Shown one piece after another: positions 10,462 through 25,184 of a stretch of 35,959 nucleotides of DNA. The translations under genes were made by a program, and so were the position numbers. Location: contig JAFGOW010000183.1 of the NCBI GenBank assembly GCA_016926265.1, positions 1 through 35,959 of the forward strand, read 5' to 3'. The notes under the pieces are model-generated. The model was given only the letters and a program-made list of their open reading frames with translations. It was not told the DNA's origin and did not search any database. The stretch's first letter is position 1. Each line of letters starts with the position of its first letter. Origin of the DNA: Deltaproteobacteria bacterium (lineage in GTDB: Bacteria > Desulfobacterota > Desulfuromonadia > Desulfuromonadales > JAAYDE01).

Positions 10462-11256
10462 TCAGTCGCTGGAACCACCGTTCGTGTCAAGGGCCGACTG
10501 CTGGCACCCGGGCCGGCCTTCGGCCCCTTCCGGCCCCTCCAGGGGCCCCACCAGTTTCTTAAAAAATTCCGGCGCTGGCGCTTCGAAGGTCAGCCGCTTG
10601 CCACTGAAGGGGTGGGGGAAGGAGATGGAGCGGGCGTGGAGCGCCAGGCGCGGCGCAAGATCGTCCTTTTTCCCGTACTTGGTGTCGCCCACGATGGGAT
10701 GCCCGATCTCGGTCATATGGACCCGGATCTGGTTTTTCCTGCCGGTCAGCAGGGTCACCTCCAGCAGGGAGAGGCCCCTTTTCACCTTCAGCAGCCGGTA
10801 ATCGGTCCGGGCCAGGCGGCCCTGGCCGTCTTCCGAAGTGGAAAAGACGAAATAGTCCGCATCCTCGGCCAGATGGGAGGTGATGGTGCCGCTCGGTTCG
10901 CAGACGCCGTGAACCACGGCCAGGTATTTCTTCTCGGTCCGGGGCCAGTTCGCCTTGAGGCGGTACATCGCCTCCTCGCTCTTGGCGAAAAGCAGCACCC
11001 CCGAGGTGTCCCGGTCCAGGCGATGGACGATGAACAGGCGCTTGCGGCTCTTGCCGCAGCCGGCGCGGAAGTATTCGGTCAGGATGGAGTGGACGGTGCG
11101 AGATTTCTCGTGCACCGTGGCCACGGTCAACAGGCCCGGAGGCTTGTCCACGACCAGGAGGTCCCGGTCCTCATAAAGGATCACCAGCCCGTAGGGAAGA
11201 CGCCGGAGGCCCCGGCTGAACGGCTTTTTCATAAAAGCGATGTGGATCTCCGCCAT
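10462..11256 (-). CDS. RluA family pseudouridine synthase (copy 1)
   Basis: FIVHRLDRDTSGVLLFAKS catalytic HRLDxxTSG; LLTGRKNQIRVHMTEIGHPIVGD. Confidence 0.95.
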   Translation of the reverse strand: MAEIHIAFMKKPFSRGLRRLPYGLVILYEDRDLLVVDKPPGLLTVATVHEKSRTVHSILTEYFRAGCGKSRKRLFIVHRLDRDTSGVLLFAKSEEAMYRLKANWPRTEKKYLAVVHGVCEPSGTITSHLAEDADYFVFSTSEDGQGRLARTDYRLLKVKRGLSLLEVTLLTGRKNQIRVHMTEIGHPIVGDTKYGKKDDLAPRLALHARSISFPHPFSGKRLTFEAPAPEFFKKLVGPLEGPEGAEGRPGCQQSALDTNGGSSD

Positions 11257-11273: not shown

Positions 11274-13235
11274 CTAGGTCCGCCGAGGCCCTTTTTCCCG
11301 CTCGGCAGACGGCTGACCTCCGCCTTCCAGGGAATTCAATATCTCCATCAGCCGCCGCTTGGCCCGATGCTCGGTGCGCAAGTTCAGGAGCAGAGCCTGC
11401 CACTCTGGCGACCGACCGCTCTTTTGATACACCTTGAGCATCTTCTTCAAATAAGCCGCAGCCTCCTGATAAGCCTTGGGCTTGACCTGAGCGATCAGGC
11501 TGTCGACCGTTGACTTCCAGATTTCCAAGGAGACATCGGGATGGCTCTGGGCGACCGCCTCGGCAACCTGATGGTCAATCCCCGATCCCCAGCGCCTGGT
11601 TTTGTGATAATCCCGATAAATGGCGACGGCGTCATCGAGACGTTTTTCCAGAAGCGCGATCTCGATCAGCATCTCCAGATTGGGAGCCTTTCCCCTTCCG
11701 GTCTTCGGGGCGGCGCCAGGTGTTTTCACCTCGGGCTCCGGCAGGGGCCAATTCGTATCCCCTGCCCGCTTTCCGGTTCGCAGAGAGTCGAGAACCCTTT
11801 CCCGAACCTGGTGCCAAGCCTGGATTTTTTCCGCCGCCTGGCGCAATTCCAGAAAGGAGTCTTTGGCCGGGTGATCGAAAAAATCCTCGGCCCGATAGGC
11901 TGCCACCAGATCGAAGCGGCCCTCTTCCCCCGCCATCTCCCGCAGGGCCCCCCGAAGCCGGTGGGCAATGCCGGGTGCCTCCTTCGCGGTTTTTTCAAAC
12001 CCCCGCAGGCACCACTGCCGGGCGCGATCCCGGTCCTCTGCTTTTCTCAAAGCCTCCACCAGGGTTTCGTAACTCTGATTTCGGTCGGCTTCCGCTTCCA
12101 GCAGCGGAATGACCTTTTGCTTCTGTCCGCTTTCCACATAAACGCGGCAAAGCCAGTGCATGATCCCCCGCCGCCGATAGGTGTCGAAGGAATCCGCTCC
12201 CTTTTGGCCGGTTTCCCGCTTTAACCGGGCTTCCAGGGCCGGCGCCACAGCACGCCAGTGATCTTGGGTAAAACGAGGGCTTTCCAGCAGATCCCCTGCT
12301 CCCGTCAAAAGGTCAAATTCATCCGCCAGCAGACACTCCACCAGCCACAGCAACTGTTCCGCCGCTTTCAACGAGCTTTTCGGCAGGGCCTCTATGACTA
12401 TCTCCAGACAGGAAGAGAGCGCCATGGCGGTCTCCCCTTCATCGTGGGAATGCCCCACCTGCTGGTTGCCCCGCTCCCACAACTCGCGGCCCAGCTGAAA
12501 AACGGCATCGGCATGCCCCTTGTGAAGCAATGCCCGCAGCTGTTCCTCAATATGGCTGTAATCGGGCAAATTCCCTTCGTGTTTCCAGGGGTTGTACCAG
12601 GCTTCCTCAGCGGTCACGCGGCGGATCTCCTGGCCCAGGGAGCGCACCAGTTTAGCCACCTGGCCGCTCTCCAACTGCCCCATATCCTGAATGCGGCGGG
12701 CAACCTCGGGAAAACGGGAAGCAAGGTCGACGAGCAAGGATTCCAGGTCATCGCGGGATTTTCCGGCCAGAAGCGCTTCGATCCGGGAGGATCTTCCCCT
12801 GACAACCGGCAAGCCCTCCGCCTCCTCATCTTCGTCCTCGCCGTAATCTTCTTCTTCCTCGTCTTCATCTTCATCCTCGGATTCATCGAACAGCTCCAAA
12901 TAGAGATCGTCCTCCGGATCCAACAGGGGAATTTCCTGATTCTTTTTCAGATGGTCCGCCGCGACCAGGAGCACGGCCACGACATGCTTGCACGGTCCGC
13001 CATGGTCATAGGGGCAGGTGCAGTCAAAGTCGAAGCTCCCTTTGGAATCCGGGCGGACCGAGGCGGCATAGTCGTCACTGCCGGAAACCCAGGCGACCAG
13101 GGTCCCGTCCGAGGTCCAGGAGAGTTGCGATACCTGGCCGACGTACCCCCGGCCGCGATTGTAGATCGTCCTCCCGGCCCATTCCCGGATATCCTCCAAA
13201 GTCAATCCCTGCAACATTTTTCTGATCATCTCCAT
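11274..13235 (-). CDS. SWIM zinc finger family protein
   Basis: FDCTCPYDHGGPCKHVVAVLLVA (CxCx(n)CxH); acidic low-complexity tract. Confidence 0.88.
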   Translation of the reverse strand: MEMIRKMLQGLTLEDIREWAGRTIYNRGRGYVGQVSQLSWTSDGTLVAWVSGSDDYAASVRPDSKGSFDFDCTCPYDHGGPCKHVVAVLLVAADHLKKNQEIPLLDPEDDLYLELFDESEDEDEDEEEEDYGEDEDEEAEGLPVVRGRSSRIEALLAGKSRDDLESLLVDLASRFPEVARRIQDMGQLESGQVAKLVRSLGQEIRRVTAEEAWYNPWKHEGNLPDYSHIEEQLRALLHKGHADAVFQLGRELWERGNQQVGHSHDEGETAMALSSCLEIVIEALPKSSLKAAEQLLWLVECLLADEFDLLTGAGDLLESPRFTQDHWRAVAPALEARLKRETGQKGADSFDTYRRRGIMHWLCRVYVESGQKQKVIPLLEAEADRNQSYETLVEALRKAEDRDRARQWCLRGFEKTAKEAPGIAHRLRGALREMAGEEGRFDLVAAYRAEDFFDHPAKDSFLELRQAAEKIQAWHQVRERVLDSLRTGKRAGDTNWPLPEPEVKTPGAAPKTGRGKAPNLEMLIEIALLEKRLDDAVAIYRDYHKTRRWGSGIDHQVAEAVAQSHPDVSLEIWKSTVDSLIAQVKPKAYQEAAAYLKKMLKVYQKSGRSPEWQALLLNLRTEHRAKRRLMEILNSLEGGGQPSAEREKGPRRT

Positions 13236-13548: not shown

Positions 13549-14742
13549 TTAATCCAAGCCGGGACAACACAGCTTTTCCAGCGCCCTTTGCAGCCAGGAG
13601 AAGCCGATCTTCTCCTGTTCCAGGCGCAGCCGGCACCCCAGGCGTCCGGCGCGCAGATCGTCGTAGAGGGTTTGCTCCTCCTCCGTCAGGCGCTTGAGGT
13701 CCCGGGTTTCAGGTTGCGGTTCCTTCCCCCAGCATAGGCGATGGGCCAGCAGGGTTTCCCGATCCATGAGAAAGGAGCGGGCGTTTGGGAAATAAGCCCG
13801 GAACTGGTCGAGGATGGCGAAACCGTGGGTATCGATATCCCCCCAGTAAAGGAGTTCCCGCTCTTGCAGCCAGGCCGCCGCGGCCAGGGTCTCGAAGCCG
13901 TAGCCGGCTCCGAACAGAACCATGCCCTGTTTTACGGGCGGAAAGGCGAGAAAATTGATCTCGTTTTCGGTGATAAAGACCCGGGTCGCCGCCGTTTCAA
14001 GGGCAGCGAACGTGTCGGCCGTGATCGTGATGTCCTGATCGGTGGCCGTGGGAAACAGGGCCAGGTCGGGGTCGAGCAGCCGCAACCGCACCCGTACCGG
14101 TTTGTCCCGGAACCCGTAGCGGCGGCAAAAGCCGCTGACCCCGCCGGCATCGGCGGCAACAGCCGCGGTGGGAAGCGTCAGATCGAAGAATTCGGCCAGA
14201 ACCCCCCGATGCCTTTCAATGAACTTGCTGTCCACGCCGGGGAGATCCACCTGTCGCAGGTAGATTCCGGGCCGCGGATGATGGCGCAGCCAGGTCACGA
14301 TAGTGATAAGGATCGTCCAATCGTCTGCCAGTTCCAAAGCCCGGAGCGGCCTCTTGACCAGCCAGGGGCGCAGCTCCGGGAGGCGTTTCGCGGTCGCTGC
14401 CAGCAAGTCAGAAAAACGCTCCGCCTGCCGGCGGCGGCCGATCATGGCCAGGGCATCTTCCAGGGAATCGACCCAGACTTCCGCGGGCACCGAATTGGCG
14501 CCGAGAACCCGGTGCTGGATGCGGCGCCACTCGATGCGGTAAAACTTGGCTCCCTCCTGGAGCATCGCGATCCAGTCGCGAACCTCGGAAAAGCGCTCCG
14601 AAAGTTCCTGGGAAGTCGGCCCTTTCAGGGTCAGACGGCGGGGGAACTCTTCTCCGTTTTCGGCCAAGGCCGCCAGCAGGATCCCGCGGTCATACCATTT
14701 CAACACCTGGGAGCGCAGCTCGGCCGGCGTCGTCCAGGTCAT
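13549..14742 (-). CDS. jetD: Wadjet JetD (DUF3322 + DUF2220, Toprim-like nuclease)
   Basis: [16 protein letters not shown] and [31 protein letters not shown]; 4-nt overlap with jetC. Confidence 0.95.
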
Positions 14743-17700
14743 GCCGTCTGCCTTTGCTTTTCGACCCGGTACTCCTCGATGGTCAGGTTGCGCAGCACCG
14801 AAGCGCGGCCGTCCTCGTTATGGACGAAGCCGACGGCGGAGACGAAAGGTTCGATGATGTGTATCTTCTGCAGGGGTGTGACAATGAGCAGTTGCAGGTT
14901 GAGCTGGGCGAAGAGCTGGAGACCATAGCGGGCCGAGTCGTCGGAGCCGCGGCCGAAGGCCTCGTCGATGACCACGAAGCGGAAGGAGCGCGACCGGACC
15001 GCCCCCCATTCGAGACCGAACTGATAGGCCAGGCTGGCGGCCAGCACGGTGTAGGCGAGTTTTTCCTTCTGCCCGCCCGACTTGCCGGCCGAATCGGCAT
15101 AATGCTCGTATTCGCTGTCGTCCTCGCGCCAGCGTTCGCTGGCCGCGAAGACGAACCAGTGGCGCACGTCCGTAACCTTGGCACTCCAGCGCCGGTCGAT
15201 CTCCGACTGCCCTTCCCGGCCCCGGAAACGCTCAATGATCCGCCGTACCTGGAGGAACTTCCCCTCGGAATAGTGGAACTCCTCGGACCCGGTCAGGGCG
15301 TCTTCCGTGCAGGCCCGCAAATCCGCCTGAAATTCACGGACCTCGGGGTCCGGAGCCGCCTGCGCCTCGAGGGCGATGTAGCGGCCGGGGTTGTAATCGA
15401 TCTGGGTCAGGGAATCGTTGATATGGCCGATCCGTTCCTTGATCGTCTCCCGCTCCCGGTTCAGTTGCGACTGGAAATTGGCCACCTCGCGGATCGTGTT
15501 CTCTTGGAGCAGCTCCTTGAAACGGGCCTCGAAGCGCGGCAGATCGTCGCCTTGCAACTGCTCCAGCAGCGCCTGGTAGTCCCCGGCCGCTTCCACGGCC
15601 ACATCCACCTCCTGGGTTTCCAGGGGATAGGAGGTGCTGAAGGAGCGCATGGCATCGATGATTTTGTCCTGCAGGCGGCGGATCTTGCCGTCCTCGGCAT
15701 CGATTTGGGTCTGGAGCCAATCCCGCATCTCCCGCTCGCGGTTTTCGCAGGATTCGACCGTCAGGGACGCTTCGCCCAGGGCCGCTTGCCGCAACACCGC
15801 CAGTCGTTCGAAATGCCGGTCGTGGCCCTGCCCCGCGGCCCCCAGCAAGGCGCGGGTCTGGTCACGCAGCTCTGCCGCGAAGGTTTTCTTCTCTTCGGTT
15901 CGGGAACGCCTGTCCTTGCGGTCGTCGAGTTGCTGTTCGGTCTCGGCCAGGGCTGTTTCCACCTCGGCGAGCCGGGCACCGAGCACCATGAGGGTGTTGG
16001 AGCCGGTTTCGAGTCGTTTCTTCTCTTCCTCAAGGCCGGCGATCTCCAAAACCAGAGGGCGCCAGTCGAGCTCCCGAAAATCGCGATACTCTTCCAGCTT
16101 GGAGAGGATGGCCAGCCGCTCCTGAAGAAGGCTCCGCTCCTGCTGCAGAGCGGCAATGCGGGCGCCGAGATCCCCCATATGCCTTTCCAGCTGGCGGCGC
16201 TGGCTTTCCAGGACGGCCAGCTTGGCGGCGTTGCTCCAGCCGAGAACGTAACGGCTGCGGTCGTTGAGGTCGTGGCGGTCATCCTTTTCGTGGCGCTCCC
16301 CCGGCATCTTGACCTGCCCGGCCCTGGTCAGGCCCCGGGCCTCCCGCCGGAACTGCTCCTGGGTGGCGCAGCAGGCCAGATCAAAACGCCGGGCGATCTC
16401 CCGTTCCAGCCAGTCGAAATAGGGGGAATCGGGTTTCAGGGCCAGCTTGCGGCCCAGCGAATCGGGAGAAATGGGGGTCGTCTCCTGCGGTTTTGCGCCC
16501 TCGCGCACACGGAAATAGACCAGCCGCCCTTTCAGCTGGGTGCGGTCCACCCACTCGGCCACGCGAGAGTAGTGAGAATCCGCAACCAGCAAGGACAGGC
16601 CGAAATTCCGCAACAGCCGCTCGATGGCCCCTTCCCACTCCCGTTCCTCCTCGCGCACCTGGATCAGCTCGCCGGCAAAGGGGAATTCTTCCTCCGCCAG
16701 GTCAAGGGCGCGGCACAGGGCGCGCCGCAGGGTGATCTGCTGTTCATCGATATTGCTGGCCCGGCGTTTGAGGCCGCTGATTTCGGCGGCCAGCCGGCCG
16801 TGCTCGGAACGCTTCTGAGCCAGAAAAACCCCGGCTTCGGTCATCTCGTTCTGGGCCGCGGCCTCTTTTTCAGCGGCCTCTTCCCGCAGAGTCCGCCAAT
16901 GCCGGCGTTGATCCAGGAAGGACTCTGCATCCTCGGCCGGATGGAGATCCAGAGCCCGGATCAGATCTCCGTAGTAACCGGCCTTGTGCCGGCGCCGCTC
17001 CTGCTCTTCCTCCTGACGGCGGATCGCCGCGGCCAGGGCGGCGATGCGGTCGCCCCCCTGTTCCGCGATGGTGTGGCGCAGTTCCAGCTCCTGCTCGCGC
17101 CGGGCCTGGCGCTGTTCTTCCAGGCGCTGGATGGCATTCTGATGCCGCTCCAGTTCCTCGCCCAGAGAGGCGAGACGTTTCTCCAGCAATTCCAGCTTGA
17201 AGCCGCAAAACCAGGGCTTCAGGGCTTCCCGGCAGGCGCGCAGTTCCGCGACGGCGCTGACAAGTTGCCCGTGGCGGTCGCAGTCGGCCACCAGGGGACC
17301 CAGCATCTCGATCTGGCGTTTGGCTTTCAAAACCGCTTCATAGGCGCGGTGAAGGTCGTCGTAATGCTTGATGAGAGCGGCGATGCGCGGCCCCACATCA
17401 AAGGGTTCGAGCATGTGGGTGCGGACAAAATCGGTGAGATTCCCAACGGATTTGAGGGACACGGTCTGGAGGAAGAGATCGAGGGCCTGCTCGTTATCGA
17501 TCCCGAAACGGCGGCGGAACCAGGAGCCGTAGGGGGGGAAACTGTCGAACAGGGCCACTCCCGCGTCCTTGAGCCGCTTGCGCAACGTGAGGATGTCGGC
17601 GCCGAATTGGGCGAAGTCGGCGCCGATGGTCAGGTCGCGCTCGCAGGCCGCATAGAACCGGGCCGGCTGCCCCTGAGCCTCCTTCGTCCAGAAGACCTGG

Positions 17701-18107
17701 GCCAGGGTCACGGTCTTGCCGTAGCCGGCGTTGTGAAAAACGCCGAGGAGCACCGAATAGCTGTTGTGGTCGCGCAACGCCACCGGCTTGGCGCTGCCGA
17801 GGGTTTCCTGGCGCTCTGATTTGTAGTATCCCAGGGTGTAGGAGCGCAGGCTCCGTTCCTTGGCGTCGGCCCCGGCCGCCTTGTTATAGGCGATGCGCTG
17901 GCTTGGCGCCAGCAGGGTAGTCAGAGCATCCACCAGGGTCGATTTCCCGGAACCGATATCCCCGGTCAGCAGAGCGTTACGGCCGTTAAGATGGAGGACC
18001 CACACCCGCCGGTCAAAGGTCCCCCAGTTGAGCACTTCCAGACGTTGCAAACGGAACCCGGCCAACCGGTCATCCGCCATGAATTCCAGCTCGAGGTTTT
18101 CAATCAT
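14739..18107 (-). CDS. jetC: Wadjet JetC, SMC/SbcC/MukB-like ATPase
   Basis: Walker [21 protein letters not shown]; signature [19 protein letters not shown]; Walker [14 protein letters not shown]; start chosen at ATG 18107, overlapping the jetB stop. Confidence 0.96.
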
Positions 18108-18729
18108 CTTCCCGCTCTCCAGGCTGCCCCAGCCGCTCCTGATAGGCGGCGAGCCGCTGATCCAGCTCGTTGAGCCACTGGGCATCGACGAACGCCTTGA
18201 GTATGCGACGCACTTCGAACATCTGCTCTTGACCCCGCAGGCGCCGGGCGAAACCGAGATCAACCACCTTGTTGAGATAGGCGTCAACCTGGTCGATCAA
18301 CCGGGTTTCGTTGCTCCCGGCGGGAAGGAAGACCCGAATCAGCTCGGCCACCTCGTCCCGGGAAAGGATCAGCCGCGTGCCGCCGCCCGCGGCGTCAAAC
18401 TCCGCCAGCTTCTTGCGCAGCAGCGCCAGCAGCAGACTGACCGGGAAGGAGAGCTGGCGCCGCGCCACCAGGCGCGGCACCCTGGCCGCCTCGTCACCGG
18501 CCTCCGGCCTGGAGCGCAGAAAAGCATACCCCTCGGCCTCGTCCAGGATCAGTTCCAGGCCGAGCACGGCCACGTAATCGCGCACCGCCGCCTGCAGATT
18601 CAGCAGGGAATTCCACAGTTCGGGGCTCTCCTCCAGGTAGACCACCCCTTTGAGCAGCGGCACCACCACGGCTGACAGATCGTGACCATCGCCTGGAACC
18701 CCGGGGGTTCCTTTATCCGGGATCGCCAT
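18100..18729 (-). CDS. jetB: Wadjet JetB (DUF4194, kleisin-associated KITE-like)
   Basis: Position between jetA and jet[46 protein letters not shown]; start 2 nt after the jetA stop. Confidence 0.93.
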
Positions 18730-18731
18730 CG

Positions 18732-20177
18732 TCACTCCCTCACGAAAACAATGCGCGGAATCCGGGCCGCGCGAACCGTGCCCTCCGCTGTTTGCCACTC
18801 CACCCGCTCCCGCTGCTCCTCGTCCACGGCCGAGCCGGGCCAGTCGCCGGCGACCTGCAGGTAGGCGATCAGCTCGGCCAGGCCGTGACGCAGGGGATGG
18901 CGAGCGATGACCTCGCCGAGGCCGATCCGGGAAGCCGCCTGCAACTCGCGACGAATATAACCGGCCAACTCCTCGCGATCAACCACCACTTGGGCGTAAA
19001 GCGCCGCCGTATCGATTTCGGCCTCCCCGACCTCCGGATCCAGATCGGCGATCAGCGGCTTCAGGGGCGGAGAATACAGGGGGCGTTCAAAGGGGAGCTC
19101 GATGGCGGCGCCGTTTTCGGCCAACGCCATGAAGTTTCCTCCGGGCAGTTCCTCGCGCACCGCCAGGGCGCGGCCCTCGATGTCGCGCAGGATATCCATG
19201 ATGCGGCGGTTTTCCAGCCACGCCTGGTCGTCGAGAAAGCGCCGCAACTGCCGGGAGAGCAGGGCCACGGTGCGCTGGGTGTGCTCGCCCGCTTCCAGCC
19301 AGTCGTAATGAATGCGCTGCAGCCGCGGCTCCGGATGCAGCTCCTGAACCGGCTTCAGATCCAGGATCTGCTCCAGGAGGCGGGTCAGTTCTTCTTGCCG
19401 GGTCGGGGACATGAGGAAATCCCAAAAGGCCCGGAAGCTCGTGCCCTCGTCGGAATCGGCGATGGCGTCCCGCTCCCCCATAATTTCTTCCAGCAGAGCG
19501 CCCTTGCCCCCCTCCCAGAGCGCGATACGCTCCCGCACCCGGCGGTCGAGGGTGCGGAAATTGCTTTCGACCGCGCGGAAATCGCTCAGCAGTTCCCGTG
19601 CCATTTGTAAGAATTGCTGAAAGCGGTCCTTGACCGCGGTTTCGTCCAGGAGCGGGAGATCGCCGTTGCGGATGCGACCGATCTCGGCGTCGATGGCCTC
19701 GCGGCGTTTCTGCAGCTCGGCGATCCGCACCCGGGGGTCGGTCTGGCTCCCTTCGCTCATCTGCCGCAACAGTTCGAACAGGGTCAGCAGCCGCGACTCG
19801 GTCCCCACGAAACGCCGCTCCCCCAGGCTGGCCAGCCAGGTCAGGGCCTTCTCCGTGGCCGGGGTCAGATCGAAATGGGGTTCGTCGGAACCGGCAGGAT
19901 AAAACTTCCGCAACCAGCCCTTGGCATTGTCGGCCCAGTCGTCAAGATAAGAGCGCCCCGAACGCGGGAAGGCCTCGGCCCCGTACTGCTCGCGCAGGGC
20001 GAAGAGCTCATCCTCCAAGGCCTCGGCCAGATCGGCCTGGGACATAATCCGGACATTGGGAGCGATAAAAACCCGGAACAGGAATCCCGCCACCAGCGAG
20101 GCGTGATCGGAGCGCAGCAGTTTCCAGGCGGGATGGTTCTGGCGCAGCAGCTCAAGGGTGGTGAAATCAAGGGGCAT
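18732..20177 (-). CDS. jetA: Wadjet JetA (DUF3375, kleisin-like)
   Basis: LDFTTLELLRQNHPAWKLLRSDHASLVAGFLFRVFI...SYLDDWADNAKGWLRKFY. Confidence 0.95.
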   Translation of the reverse strand: MPLDFTTLELLRQNHPAWKLLRSDHASLVAGFLFRVFIAPNVRIMSQADLAEALEDELFALREQYGAEAFPRSGRSYLDDWADNAKGWLRKFYPAGSDEPHFDLTPATEKALTWLASLGERRFVGTESRLLTLFELLRQMSEGSQTDPRVRIAELQKRREAIDAEIGRIRNGDLPLLDETAVKDRFQQFLQMARELLSDFRAVESNFRTLDRRVRERIALWEGGKGALLEEIMGERDAIADSDEGTSFRAFWDFLMSPTRQEELTRLLEQILDLKPVQELHPEPRLQRIHYDWLEAGEHTQRTVALLSRQLRRFLDDQAWLENRRIMDILRDIEGRALAVREELPGGNFMALAENGAAIELPFERPLYSPPLKPLIADLDPEVGEAEIDTAALYAQVVVDREELAGYIRRELQAASRIGLGEVIARHPLRHGLAELIAYLQVAGDWPGSAVDEEQRERVEWQTAEGTVRAARIPRIVFVRE

Positions 20178-20227
20178 GGGGGGAAAATCCGTTGGGCAAT
20201 TGAACAGTAATCAGAGGGCAAGGCCGG

Positions 20228-20953
20228 TTATCCCTCCTCGCCTTCTTCTTTTTCCCTGGCCACCAGTCCACGCCAAATAAAGATCGTACCTTCATTCAAA
20301 TCCCGCTGATCGTTTTGACTCAGCTCCTTGTTGAGAGCCTTCGCATTGGGAATATCCGCCATGGTCAGGGGGATGGCGGCCCCCGTATGCATCCAGGCCG
20401 TTTTAAAAGGGAAGATCCTGAGCCCGAACAACCCGCTGATGACATCCTGTTTCGATATGCGGCTGTCGAGAACAAAAAATTCCTTTCCCGAAAAGGTGTC
20501 CCAGGCAATGAACCCCCCTGGAGGAACCAACTCCTTGACCATAAAGATGGAAAACATAGCCTGAGCCATGCCTTGCAGAAGCGACCGCTCCATGGACCCC
20601 TCTGGGTAGCGATTGCTATTCAGCATCTGCTGGACAAAATTGATGCCGCGGGGGCGGTGCATATAGGTCGCATAGTCCTGGAACAGCTCCATTCCGTATT
20701 CATCTTCAAATATTATGGCCTTTTTTCCTCCCTGTTTTTTTAGCATTCGAAGCCGCTTGGCGCAGGCCTGATAGGCCTCTTTCCGGATCAGCTTGCCGGT
20801 CTCGGAATTTAAACGTTTCAACAGCTCCAGCATCGCTGGATATTCGGCAAACAGGGCTTCATAATCGGCAGGGATGACGGCCGTATTTCCAAAATCTTTT
20901 TGGGCTTTGCCAACCTGGGTTGCCTCAATATTTAAAGAATCTGGCTTCGACAA
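20228..20953 (-). CDS. Uncharacterised 241-aa protein immediately upstream of jetA
   Basis: TTG start with CCGGAGG RBS; 50-bp gap to jetA, same strand. Confidence 0.75.
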   Translation of the reverse strand: MSKPDSLNIEATQVGKAQKDFGNTAVIPADYEALFAEYPAMLELLKRLNSETGKLIRKEAYQACAKRLRMLKKQGGKKAIIFEDEYGMELFQDYATYMHRPRGINFVQQMLNSNRYPEGSMERSLLQGMAQAMFSIFMVKELVPPGGFIAWDTFSGKEFFVLDSRISKQDVISGLFGLRIFPFKTAWMHTGAAIPLTMADIPNAKALNKELSQNDQRDLNEGTIFIWRGLVAREKEEGEEG

Positions 20954-21069: not shown

Positions 21070-21147
21070 TCCCCCTCCCTGACCCTCCCCCTTCTGGGGA
21101 GGGTAACTATTTTCCTCCCCCCAGCGGGGGGAGGTCAGGAGGGGGGC
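21070..21147. repeat. Compound inverted repeat (two inner hairpins inside an outer stem)
   Basis: CCCCCTCCCTGACC / GGTCAGGAGGGGGG outer arms; inner CTCCCCcttctGGGGAG and CCTCCCCCcagcGGGGGGAGG. Confidence 0.8.
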
Positions 21148-21302: not shown

Positions 21303-21590
21303 AAGTTGCAACAGAAACGCCTGCCCAAGGGGGATGAAAAGAATCAGGAGGAAGAGGAGGGCATCGTCCTGCTCGATATCGTTTCCCAGCCGATGGCCAC
21401 CATGCAGAACACCATCGCCCGTTTGAAACTGGCCACCTACTCCCCGGATGTCGCCATTTCCATTTCCAAAGCCGCCTGCACCTTCCTCGATTTCCACCGC
21501 GCCGACGAAATGATCCGGCTCGGATACCATCAGGCCGGGGTAACCATGGAATCCTTTCTGGCGGAAAGCGGCGGCCAGCCAAATAAAAAT
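21303..21590 (+). pseudogene. C-terminal fragment of patatin-like phospholipase
   Basis: LQQKRLP...LLDIVSQPMATMQNTIARLKLATYSPDVAISISKAACTFLDFHRADEMIRLGYHQAGVTMESFLAESGG closely matches the C-terminus of the intact patatin at 24246-25184; in-frame TAG directly upstream. Confidence 0.85.
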
Positions 21591-21680: not shown

Positions 21681-22397
21681 TCACCCGTCGCCTTCCGGCC
21701 CCTCCAGGCTCCCCATTAATCTGCTGAAAAATTCCGGCGCTGGCGCTTCGAAGCTCAGCCGCCTGCCGCTGAAGGGGTGCGGGAAGGAGAGGAAGCGGGC
21801 GTGCAGCGCCATGCGCGGCTCAAGATCATCCTTTTTCCCGTATTTGGTGTCGCCGACAATGGGATGCCCGATCTCGGCCAGATGCACCCGGATCTGGTTT
21901 TTCCTTCCGGTCAGCAGAACCACCTCCAGCAGGGAGAGGTTTCTTTTCACCTTCAGCAGGCAGTAATCGGTCCGGGCCAGGCGACCCTGGCCATCTTCCG
22001 AAGTGGAAAAAACGAAATAGTCCTCGTCCTCGGCCAGACGGGAGGTGATGGTGCCGCTGGGCTCGCAGACGCCGTGGACCACGGCCAGATATTTCTTCTC
22101 GGTCTGGGGCCAGTTCGCCTTGAGGCGGTACATCGCCTCCTCGCTCTTGGCAAAAAGCAGCAGACCGGAGGTGTCCCGGTCCAGCCGATGGACGATGAAG
22201 AGGCGCTTGCGGCTCTTGCCGCAGCCGGCCCGGAAGTATTCGGTCAGAATGGAGTGGACGGTGCGCGATTTCTCGTGCACCGTGGCCACGGTCAGAAGCC
22301 CGGCGGGCTTGTCCACCACCATGAGCTCCCGGTCCTCGTAAAGGATCACCAGGCCGTGGGGAAGGCGCCGGAGGCCCCGGCTGAGCGGTTTTTTCAT
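21681..22397 (-). CDS. RluA family pseudouridine synthase (copy 2)
   Basis: Nearly identical to 10462-11256; start set at MKKPLSRGLRRL, where similarity between copies begins. Confidence 0.93.
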   Translation of the reverse strand: MKKPLSRGLRRLPHGLVILYEDRELMVVDKPAGLLTVATVHEKSRTVHSILTEYFRAGCGKSRKRLFIVHRLDRDTSGLLLFAKSEEAMYRLKANWPQTEKKYLAVVHGVCEPSGTITSRLAEDEDYFVFSTSEDGQGRLARTDYCLLKVKRNLSLLEVVLLTGRKNQIRVHLAEIGHPIVGDTKYGKKDDLEPRMALHARFLSFPHPFSGRRLSFEAPAPEFFSRLMGSLEGPEGDG

Positions 22398-22496
22398 GGC
22401 AAACCGGGATCCACGGATTTCCTGCTTGGGAACATATCCCAAAGAACGTTTGACGCCACGATACGTACCGTCATTAAGCCGCCGCAAAAAGCACCT

Positions 22497-22532
22497 TTGA
22501 CAGGTCTTTTAACAGGTGCTAAATTGGCACCT
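22497..22532 (+). promoter_or_regulatory. Promoter/operator of the Phd-ParE type TA operon
   Basis: TTGACA-17 bp-TAAATT with extended -10 TGc; inverted repeat AGGTGC-N7-GCACCT (22514-22532) overlaps the -10. Confidence 0.75.
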
Positions 22533-22547
22533 ATCCAGGAGGCTCCC

Positions 22548-22817
22548 ATGAATGCCAAATTTTCCGAAGACGTCATACCCCTCACCGAAATGAAAATCAA
22601 CCCCGGCAAGGTGATCCGACAGGTTGCCGACGTCCATCGTCCGGTTCTCCTGACCAGTCGCGGCCGGGGGGTCGCCGTAGTCCTGGCTCTGGAGGATTTT
22701 GAAAAGAACGAGGAAGAGAAAGAGTTCATGCGGGCGGTGGTTGCCGGGTTGAATGATCTCGAAGAAGGCCGGGAACTCAGTCTCGCTGAAGCGAAAGAGC
22801 GCCTCGGGCGGGGATGA
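22548..22817 (+). CDS. Phd/YefM family antitoxin
   Basis: MNAKFSEDVIPLTEMKINPGKVIRQVADVHRPVLLTSRGRGVAVVLALEDFEK. Confidence 0.93.
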   Translation: MNAKFSEDVIPLTEMKINPGKVIRQVADVHRPVLLTSRGRGVAVVLALEDFEKNEEEKEFMRAVVAGLNDLEEGRELSLAEAKERLGRG

Positions 22818-23128
22818 TGGCCGGTCACCTCCCCATCACCCTGGCTGTTTCGGCCTTGAACGACCTCGAAGAGATCAGAAGCCACTACCTGGAAAAACAG
22901 ATCCCGGAAGTTGGCGAGAAACTGACAAGGGATATTTTCAACGCCATGGAGGGACTCGGCCTCTTCTCCGATCAGGGCCGAATCGTCCCGGAATTCGGCC
23001 AGCCCCTGCTCCGCGAACTGATTCATCCCCCCTTCCGTATCGTTTACCGCCGCGACCCCGGACGGATACGGGTTGTGCGTATCTGGCGGAGCGAGCGCCT
23101 GCTCCGGTTTCCGGAGAAGAATCGGTAA
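22814..23128 (+). CDS. parE: RelE/ParE family toxin
   Basis: VSALNDLEEIRSHYLEKQIPEVGEKLTRDIFNAME...ELIHPPFRIVYRRDPGRIRVVRIWRSERLL; ATGA overlap with antitoxin. Confidence 0.93.
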   Translation: MMAGHLPITLAVSALNDLEEIRSHYLEKQIPEVGEKLTRDIFNAMEGLGLFSDQGRIVPEFGQPLLRELIHPPFRIVYRRDPGRIRVVRIWRSERLLRFPEKNR

Positions 23129-23533
23129 CCGACCTTGCGGGCTTCCACCGTCACCGTAGCACTGGAGCCCAATCTCCGGCATTGGGCGCCGCTGGATTCT
23201 ATGACTTTGATAGGCATCCCTCAGCCCCGCAATCACGTTGGCCGCCCTGTCGTTCCCCTTAAGGCGTTCCTCCGGCGTCATATCAAGAAACATGGCGACC
23301 AGTGCATTATCGACGGATTGGTTCTGGTTTTTTCCCCTCGGAGAATTTATTTGAGGCGTCGTCTCAGTTAACGATTCCCCTGAAAAAACCTGAAAAAATG
23401 GCGGCGCCACGTGCGGAGAGTATCAGAAAAGAGTTGCAAAGTCGATGGAACAGCCATTGAGCCTATTCCCGACGTACCGCCGAATGTGATAGGTTTTTAA
23501 ACCGAAACACACCCCTCAATAGATTAAGGAACC

Positions 23534-24256
23534 ATGACCTCTTTCTCATCCGTTCTTTCCCACCCCTGGGACCTCTCTCCCAGGGAGGCCGTCGCCCTCC
23601 AGAAATCCCTGGCCGGGAGGATCATCGAAACAGACGATTTCGGGGAGCTGCGATACGTCGCGGGAATCGACATCGGCTGGAAAAGAGGGGATGAAAAAGC
23701 CAAAGCCGCGGCGGCGGTGCTGACCTATCCGGAGCTGGAGCTGGCCGATTGGGCCGCCGCCGAATGGGAGATCACTTTCCCTTACGTGCCGGGGCTGCTC
23801 TCCTTCCGGGAGGTGCCGGCGGCGCTGGAGGCGCTGGCCAAACTCAAAATCCGCCCCGACCTTCTGCTCTGCGACGGCCAGGGGCGGGCGCACCCGCGCC
23901 GCTTCGGACTGGCCTGCCACATCGGCCTGCTGACCGGCCTCCCCGCCATCGGGGTCGCCAAGTCCAGGCTCTGCGGCCAATTCGGAAACCTTCCGGAGCG
24001 AAAAGGGAGTTCGGCGCCGCTGACGGACCGGGGTGAGATCATCGGGTTGGTGCTGAGAAGCCGCACCGGGGTCAAGCCGCTGTTCGTCTCCGTCGGCCAC
24101 CGGATCGGACTCGCAACGGCCAAAGAGGTGGTGCTGCGGTGTGTGACCCGCTACCGGCTGCCGGAGACCACCCGCTGGGCGCACCGCATCGCCTCCGAGG
24201 GTGTCTGCCCCCAGAATTCCAGCATTTTTTCAAAGGATTCCGCCCATGTCCGCTAA
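23534..24256 (+). CDS. nfi: Endonuclease V
   Basis: LRYVAGIDIGW..YVPGLLSFREVPAALEALAKLKIRPDLLLCDGQGRAHPRRFGLACHIGLLTGLPAIGVAKS. Confidence 0.96.
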   Translation: MTSFSSVLSHPWDLSPREAVALQKSLAGRIIETDDFGELRYVAGIDIGWKRGDEKAKAAAAVLTYPELELADWAAAEWEITFPYVPGLLSFREVPAALEALAKLKIRPDLLLCDGQGRAHPRRFGLACHIGLLTGLPAIGVAKSRLCGQFGNLPERKGSSAPLTDRGEIIGLVLRSRTGVKPLFVSVGHRIGLATAKEVVLRCVTRYRLPETTRWAHRIASEGVCPQNSSIFSKDSAHVR

Positions 24257-25184
24257 AAAGAAGAAAAAAACCACCGTCTCCCTGGTACTCGGCAGCGGCG
24301 GCGCCCGCGGCTACGCCCACATCGGCATCATCCAGTGGCTGACCGAGCACGACTACGACATCCGCTCCATCGCCGGCTGCTCCATGGGCGCTTTGGTCGG
24401 CGGCATCTACGCGGCCGGGGAACTCGATTCCTATTCCCGGTGGGCGCGCGCCCTGGAACGCACGGACGTGCTGATGCTGCTCGATTTCAATCTCGGCGGT
24501 CTCGGTTTTTTCAAGGGGGAAAAGGTCATCGGGGCGCTGAAGAAACTGATCGGAGACCGCAATATCGAGGACCTTCCCATCTCCTTCACGGCGGTGGCCA
24601 CCGACATCCAGACCGAAAAGGAGGTCTGGCTCAGCAAGGGCCCGCTGTTCGACGCCATCCGCGCCTCCATCGCCATCCCCACCTTCTTCACCCCCTTCAA
24701 TTACCAGGGAAAGACCCTCTTCGACGGCGGCCTGCTCAACCCCATCCCCATCGCGCCGACGCTGCGGGACATGACCGACCTCACCATCGCGGTGAATCTG
24801 AGCGCCAAGGGGGAGGTTCCGGCTTTGGAACCGGAGCCGAGACCGGAGCCGCAAAACGCCTGGGAAAAATACCGGGCCGAGATTGTCGGGTTCGTGGAGG
24901 AACTGCAGCAGAAATGGCTCCCCCGGAACTCCCCCGAAGAGCAGGATGAGGAGATCGGCCTGCTCGATATCGTCTCCCAGTCGATGGACACCATGCAGAA
25001 CGCCATCGCCCGCTTCAAGCTCGCCACCTACTCCCCCGATGTCATCATCCCGGTTCCCAAGTGCGCCTGCACCTTCCTCGATTTCCACCGCGCCGACGAG
25101 CTGATCCGGCTCGGATACCATCAGGCCGGGGTGACTATGGAATCCTTTCTGGCGGAAAGCGGCGGCGGTAAATCAAAAAAATAA
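24246..25184 (+). CDS. Patatin-like phospholipase family protein
   Basis: LVLGSGGARGYAHIGII; GCSMGALVGG; LFDGGLLNPIPI (Ser-Asp dyad motifs). Confidence 0.95.
   Translation: MSAKKKKKTTVSLVLGSGGARGYAHIGIIQWLTEHDYDIRSIAGCSMGALVGGIYAAGELDSYSRWARALERTDVLMLLDFNLGGLGFFKGEKVIGALKKLIGDRNIEDLPISFTAVATDIQTEKEVWLSKGPLFDAIRASIAIPTFFTPFNYQGKTLFDGGLLNPIPIAPTLRDMTDLTIAVNLSAKGEVPALEPEPRPEPQNAWEKYRAEIVGFVEELQQKWLPRNSPEEQDEEIGLLDIVSQSMDTMQNAIARFKLATYSPDVIIPVPKCACTFLDFHRADELIRLGYHQAGVTMESFLAESGGGKSKK

Follow-up and report, generated by a model that had tools for sequence, protein, structure and literature searches.

An uncharacterised ORF in front of a type I Wadjet operon: member of a conserved, unnamed family and probable single-gene cargo

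The window (the whole stretch of DNA analysed, 35,959 nucleotides) carries a type I Wadjet operon on its minus strand, with jetA, jetB, jetC and jetD in one operon (20177-13549) and all four strongly matched by PADLOC. The kleisin gene jetA (DUF3375; 18732-20177) matches the PADLOC model JetA1 with an E-value of 1.8e-220, jetB (DUF4194, MukE-like; 18100-18729) matches JetB1 (E 8.7e-94), the SMC-like jetC (14739-18107) matches JetC1 (E 0) and jetD (DUF3322 and Toprim nuclease; 13549-14742) matches JetD1 (E 6.7e-156). For jetB and jetC internal ATG starts were inferred, the longest ORFs beginning at 18798 and 18287 respectively. Upstream of jetA and on the same strand lies an uncharacterised ORF of 241 codons (20228-20953), which runs from a TTG at 20953 to a stop codon at 20228-20230 and encodes a product of about 240-241 aa. 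The sequence CCGGAGGTTGATCCC stands directly before the TTG, with a GGAGG ribosome-binding site. The initial annotation had described a TTG start with a good ribosome-binding site and an end 50 bp before jetA in the same orientation, and both descriptions agree with our analysis.

Nothing terminator-like was found on the minus strand in the 50 bp gap between the stop codon of the ORF and the ATG of jetA at 20177 (20178-20227). Since no terminator pattern separates the two genes, read-through from the ORF into jetA would be likely, and the initial annotation's proposal that the jet operon begins with the ORF is plausible: judging from the short gap, the shared strand and the uninterrupted spacer, it plausibly shares a transcript with jetA. 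In the spacer of about 200 bp upstream of the ORF we found a GC-rich inverted repeat (21082-21104) that is terminator-like on the plus strand only. Further upstream, positions 21346-21575 represent a remnant of the 3' end of a patatin-like gene (24201-25184), with 88% DNA identity to 24940-25166; no intact upstream operon partner of the ORF is present.

Further features surround the operon. Two rluA-like pseudouridine synthase genes (10526-11232 and 21691-22397) form direct repeats of about 708 bp with 90% identity and bracket a segment comprising a SWIM gene, the four jet genes and the ORF; the whole segment could be lost or relocated if the two copies recombined. The SWIM gene (11274-13235, minus strand), downstream of jetD, encodes a 653-aa zinc-finger protein with weak similarity to PADLOC PDC-S62. 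When three genomes (G001-G003) were examined for an empty site, it was found only in G002, and the fetched G002 stretch around it gave no Jet match. A 338-aa flanking ORF (22394-23410), possibly not a gene, was unmatched in the same three genomes.

Homology searches place the ORF in a conserved family. The first homologue, from a genome of the same order, is 47% identical, and the close group shows 41-52% identity to the window protein over about 210 residues; because these homologues are full-length, the ORF belongs to a conserved, unnamed family. Across all 277 genomes examined from the class, the family profile detected six strong members, and further members were found across the phylum. 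A search of wider genome contigs with the alignment as query detected four loci, two of which are the contigs already known as G129 and G048, and the same search with the single ORF protein found no relatives. In the pairs that allowed an estimate, dN was well below dS: comparison of the family genes of G129 and G130 gave a dN of 0.043 and a dS of 0.149 (dN/dS about 0.29), and that of G129 and G048 a dN of 0.155 and a dS of 1.08 (dN/dS about 0.14). The non-ATG start of the ORF is supported by five close homologues, whose start at the equivalent place is likewise TTG or GTG preceded by a GGAG. A spurious ORF would fit the TTG start and the G+C content of 50.6%, compared with 63-65% for the jet genes; the conserved full-length homologues, dN/dS values well below 1 and the conserved start region refute this reading, which has practically no probability left. 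Conservation thus confirms the ORF as a real, conserved coding gene.

The start regions of the window ORF (at 20953) and of distant homologues (L019, L020, L016, L017 and L113) are similar, with GGAG, a few bases and CCC (or TTCC) immediately before TTG or GTG, and some form GGAG-N3-CTCC. This pattern is a possible candidate for translational control.

The ORF was described initially as a protein without recognisable domain, which holds for searches in Pfam, PADLOC, NCBIfam and PHROGs, where it was unmatched. Sequence searches of the PDB revealed nothing significant, and phage and viral contig collections contained no match. A match to Ribosomal_S18 (E 0.11) was rejected as chance.

An AlphaFold2 model of the ORF protein, built with five sequences (pLDDT 61.8; pTM 0.59), is best in the helices 31-55 and 121-130 and in a five-stranded barrel at residues 133-195. 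The protein would accordingly be divided, with moderate confidence, into an N-terminal helical part (about 24-130) and a five-stranded OB-like barrel (about 133-195). Foldseek revealed no match at an E-value of 0.001 or better; OB folds (CspA, YB-1, IF1 and eIF1A) recur among the top matches with E-values of 0.02-0.1 and TM-scores by target of 0.43-0.63, for a model whose pLDDT is 61.8. The SEC-C signature is present in all five long proteins with a match to the family (L013, L101, L102, L103 and L105), and this match lies mainly over the barrel segment. A hmmsearch of SEC-C proteins for the barrel region gave E-values of 5e-6 to 3e-11, and hhalign of the ORF family with the SEC-C protein L119/P0011 an E-value of 4e-7. 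These profile comparisons show that the barrel region of the ORF is homologous to a segment of larger SEC-C motif proteins. In the ORF, the SEC-C zinc motif (CxCxSG...CC) is missing: Pfam SEC-C (PF02810) is unmatched and the translation does not contain the motif. SEC-C motifs of SecA-like proteins contact ribosomes. The OB-like barrel matches and the SEC-C relation make a nucleic-acid- or ribosome-binding regulator the best guess for the function of the ORF protein. In L119 (6867-8324), a 485-aa protein combines SEC-C, the family barrel segment and a terminal Xre/MbcA/ParS toxin-binding domain.

The neighbourhoods of the family are diverse. In G048, the family gene is accompanied by a nucleotidyltransferase gene with a HEPN-like partner (HEPN/MNT) and by PIN (VapC-like), YafQ-like and Sir2 genes, and in G154 a truncated copy lies beside HsdR-, DinD- and HipAB-like genes, which were named by eye and not from profile matches. 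In two loci (L016 and L017) the family gene stands between apparent housekeeping genes (judged by eye), in four genomes (G311, G547, G561 and G385) among unrelated genes, and in G244 downstream of an HU-like gene recognised by its motif by eye. The defence-type neighbours in G048 and G154, together with the toxin-binding domain at the end of the related SEC-C protein L119, would suit a component of defence or toxin-antitoxin type that acts alone and tends to lie near defence genes in general, Wadjet being just one such neighbour. However, several homologues lie among housekeeping genes (L016, L017, G311 and G547), a conserved partner gene and a recognisable catalytic motif are absent and PADLOC is unmatched, so that we hold this explanation to be rather improbable.

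Distant members of the family were detected on plasmids of Nitrobacter, Microvirga, Rhodovastum, Skermanella and Cysteiniphilum. On the Microvirga and Rhodovastum plasmids the family gene is divergent from a DDE_5 transposase gene, an arrangement often repeated across plasmids of one strain, which could point to an accessory role within a transposon or a different mobile element, with the gene in the window as a remnant. The proteins on these plasmids are, however, just about 22-29% identical to the ORF, and an adjacent transposase is absent in the window, G129, G130, G048, L016, G311 and G547; we consider such an origin very improbable.

To relate the family to Wadjet across genomes, we profiled 43 Jet stretches, comprising 40 fetched stretches, the window and two relatives (G129, which is L019, and G130, which is L020). 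The family was detected in three of the 43 (window, L019 and L020) and not in the 40 other Jet stretches of the class, some of whose flanks are cut by contig ends. Wadjet adjacency occurs in just two situations: in the window the family gene lies upstream of jetA on the same strand, and in G129 and G130, two MAGs of one genus, it follows jetD on the same strand after a short gap. No jetA was detected in ten family-bearing genomes (G048, G154, G311, G547, G646, G561, G301, G435, G385 and the genome of L016), several of which are incomplete, and in two others, G244 and G656 (the genome of L017), jetA and the family gene are both present on separate contigs. Of the 277 genomes of the class, 48 have jetA, and the family occurs together with it somewhat more often than expected (Fisher p 0.009; with G129 and G130 treated as one case, 0.036), many of the genomes being incomplete MAGs. 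A conserved co-location of the ORF with jet genes was thus not observed, and on this distribution the family is not a conserved Wadjet gene. The suggestion that the ORF is a Wadjet accessory is therefore not supported as a general role, given the 40 Jet stretches that lack the family, the ten genomes without detected jetA and the many unrelated contexts. Homologues scattered without jet neighbours, which the initial annotation had named as refuting the idea, are largely what we observed; it is kept alive by the second adjacency, downstream of jetD in G129 and G130. A search of the literature found no fifth Wadjet gene of this kind.

Two aspects of these adjacencies are relevant here. The G129 gene shares 77-79% identity with the gene of G048, a genome in which no jetA was detected, and about 51% with that of the window. 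As the adjacent cases are therefore not sisters, Jet adjacency probably arose more than once; the family tree, which is weakly supported, needs two changes for it and is also compatible with a single origin. The slot upstream of jetA, moreover, varies within the class: in several loci a Fic-like gene (by eye) precedes jetA by about 15 bp, and in G029 a SWIM-like gene does so by 3 bp. Because such genes also fill this slot, a short same-strand gap before jetA is common and unspecific. The Fic-like gene, of about 340 aa, was seen upstream of jetA in L057, L059, L060, L062 and L066, with a 231-aa ORF in L060 and a 168-aa piece separated by a 165-bp gap in L066 as exceptions, and is a jet neighbour more often than the ORF family. 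The SWIM-like homologue in G029 is L070, so the SWIM gene, too, occurs at both ends of jet operons.

A facultative Wadjet partner, that is, an optional regulator or target-recognition aid recruited at least twice and working with other systems elsewhere, would be in line with the shared strand and the small distances in both cases, with the closer relation of the G129 gene to that of G048 than to the window's, with an OB-like barrel that, as predicted, could bind DNA, and with the mild co-occurrence with jetA at the genome level. Against it stand the roughly 40 other Jet stretches without a family gene and the variety of genes that fill the slot upstream of jetA, which makes adjacency weak evidence. 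In addition, JetABCD alone suffice for type I plasmid restriction in heterologous hosts (PMC10586767). We regard this partnership as unlikely, and a loose functional link between the ORF and Wadjet as having a similarly low probability. Slightly more doubtful is the specific version in which the family, as an optional and transferable gene recruited at either operon end, modulates type I Wadjet; it would bind DNA or RNA with its OB-like barrel and thereby tune loading, specificity or expression.

In the explanation that we favour and consider probable, the ORF is single-gene cargo: an autonomous member of an unnamed family, acquired horizontally, that now stands immediately in front of a type I Wadjet operon. 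Most of its relatives are found in genomes without Wadjet, which makes a wandering neighbour more likely than a Wadjet component; the six genomes with strong family members versus the 48 with jetA, the mostly non-Wadjet neighbours and the lower G+C content of the ORF were also counted in favour of cargo. As such, the gene would move horizontally on its own and would have landed in front of jetA. Its protein would act alone, presumably as a small stress- or defence-type regulator that binds nucleic acid or ribosomes, and its transcript would read through into jetA and at most alter the level of jet expression in this strain. Two Wadjet adjacencies at opposite operon ends would exceed uniform random insertion and count against the cargo explanation, as do the co-occurrence with jetA, the incompleteness of the MAGs and the weak fold matches. 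Both adjacencies could, however, also result if mobile and defence genes tend to gather around Wadjet.

The case of this ORF cautions against calling a gene a defence accessory from a single operon-like position, because the gene that stands in front of jetA differs from genome to genome in this class. The analysis also defines a conserved, unnamed, SEC-C-linked family that is missing from annotation databases, and the ORF offers an inexpensive way to ask whether optional partners of Wadjet exist.

Comparison with known systems places the ORF beside three groups. As to type I Wadjet (JetABCD), it adjoins a complete four-gene operon on the same strand, but it has no match to any of JetA-D, nearly all other Jet loci of the class lack it and it occurs in genomes without detected jetA. 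It shares a homologous C-terminal barrel region with SEC-C motif proteins (L119/P0011, L013, L101, L102 and L103) and differs from them as a short, stand-alone protein that lacks the SEC-C zinc motif. Its predicted five-stranded barrel superposes on the OB folds of CspA (2l15), YB-1 (6ktc) and IF1 (4ql5) with TM-scores by target of about 0.6, whereas sequence similarity to these proteins is absent, the E-values are weak and the ORF protein adds an N-terminal helical half.
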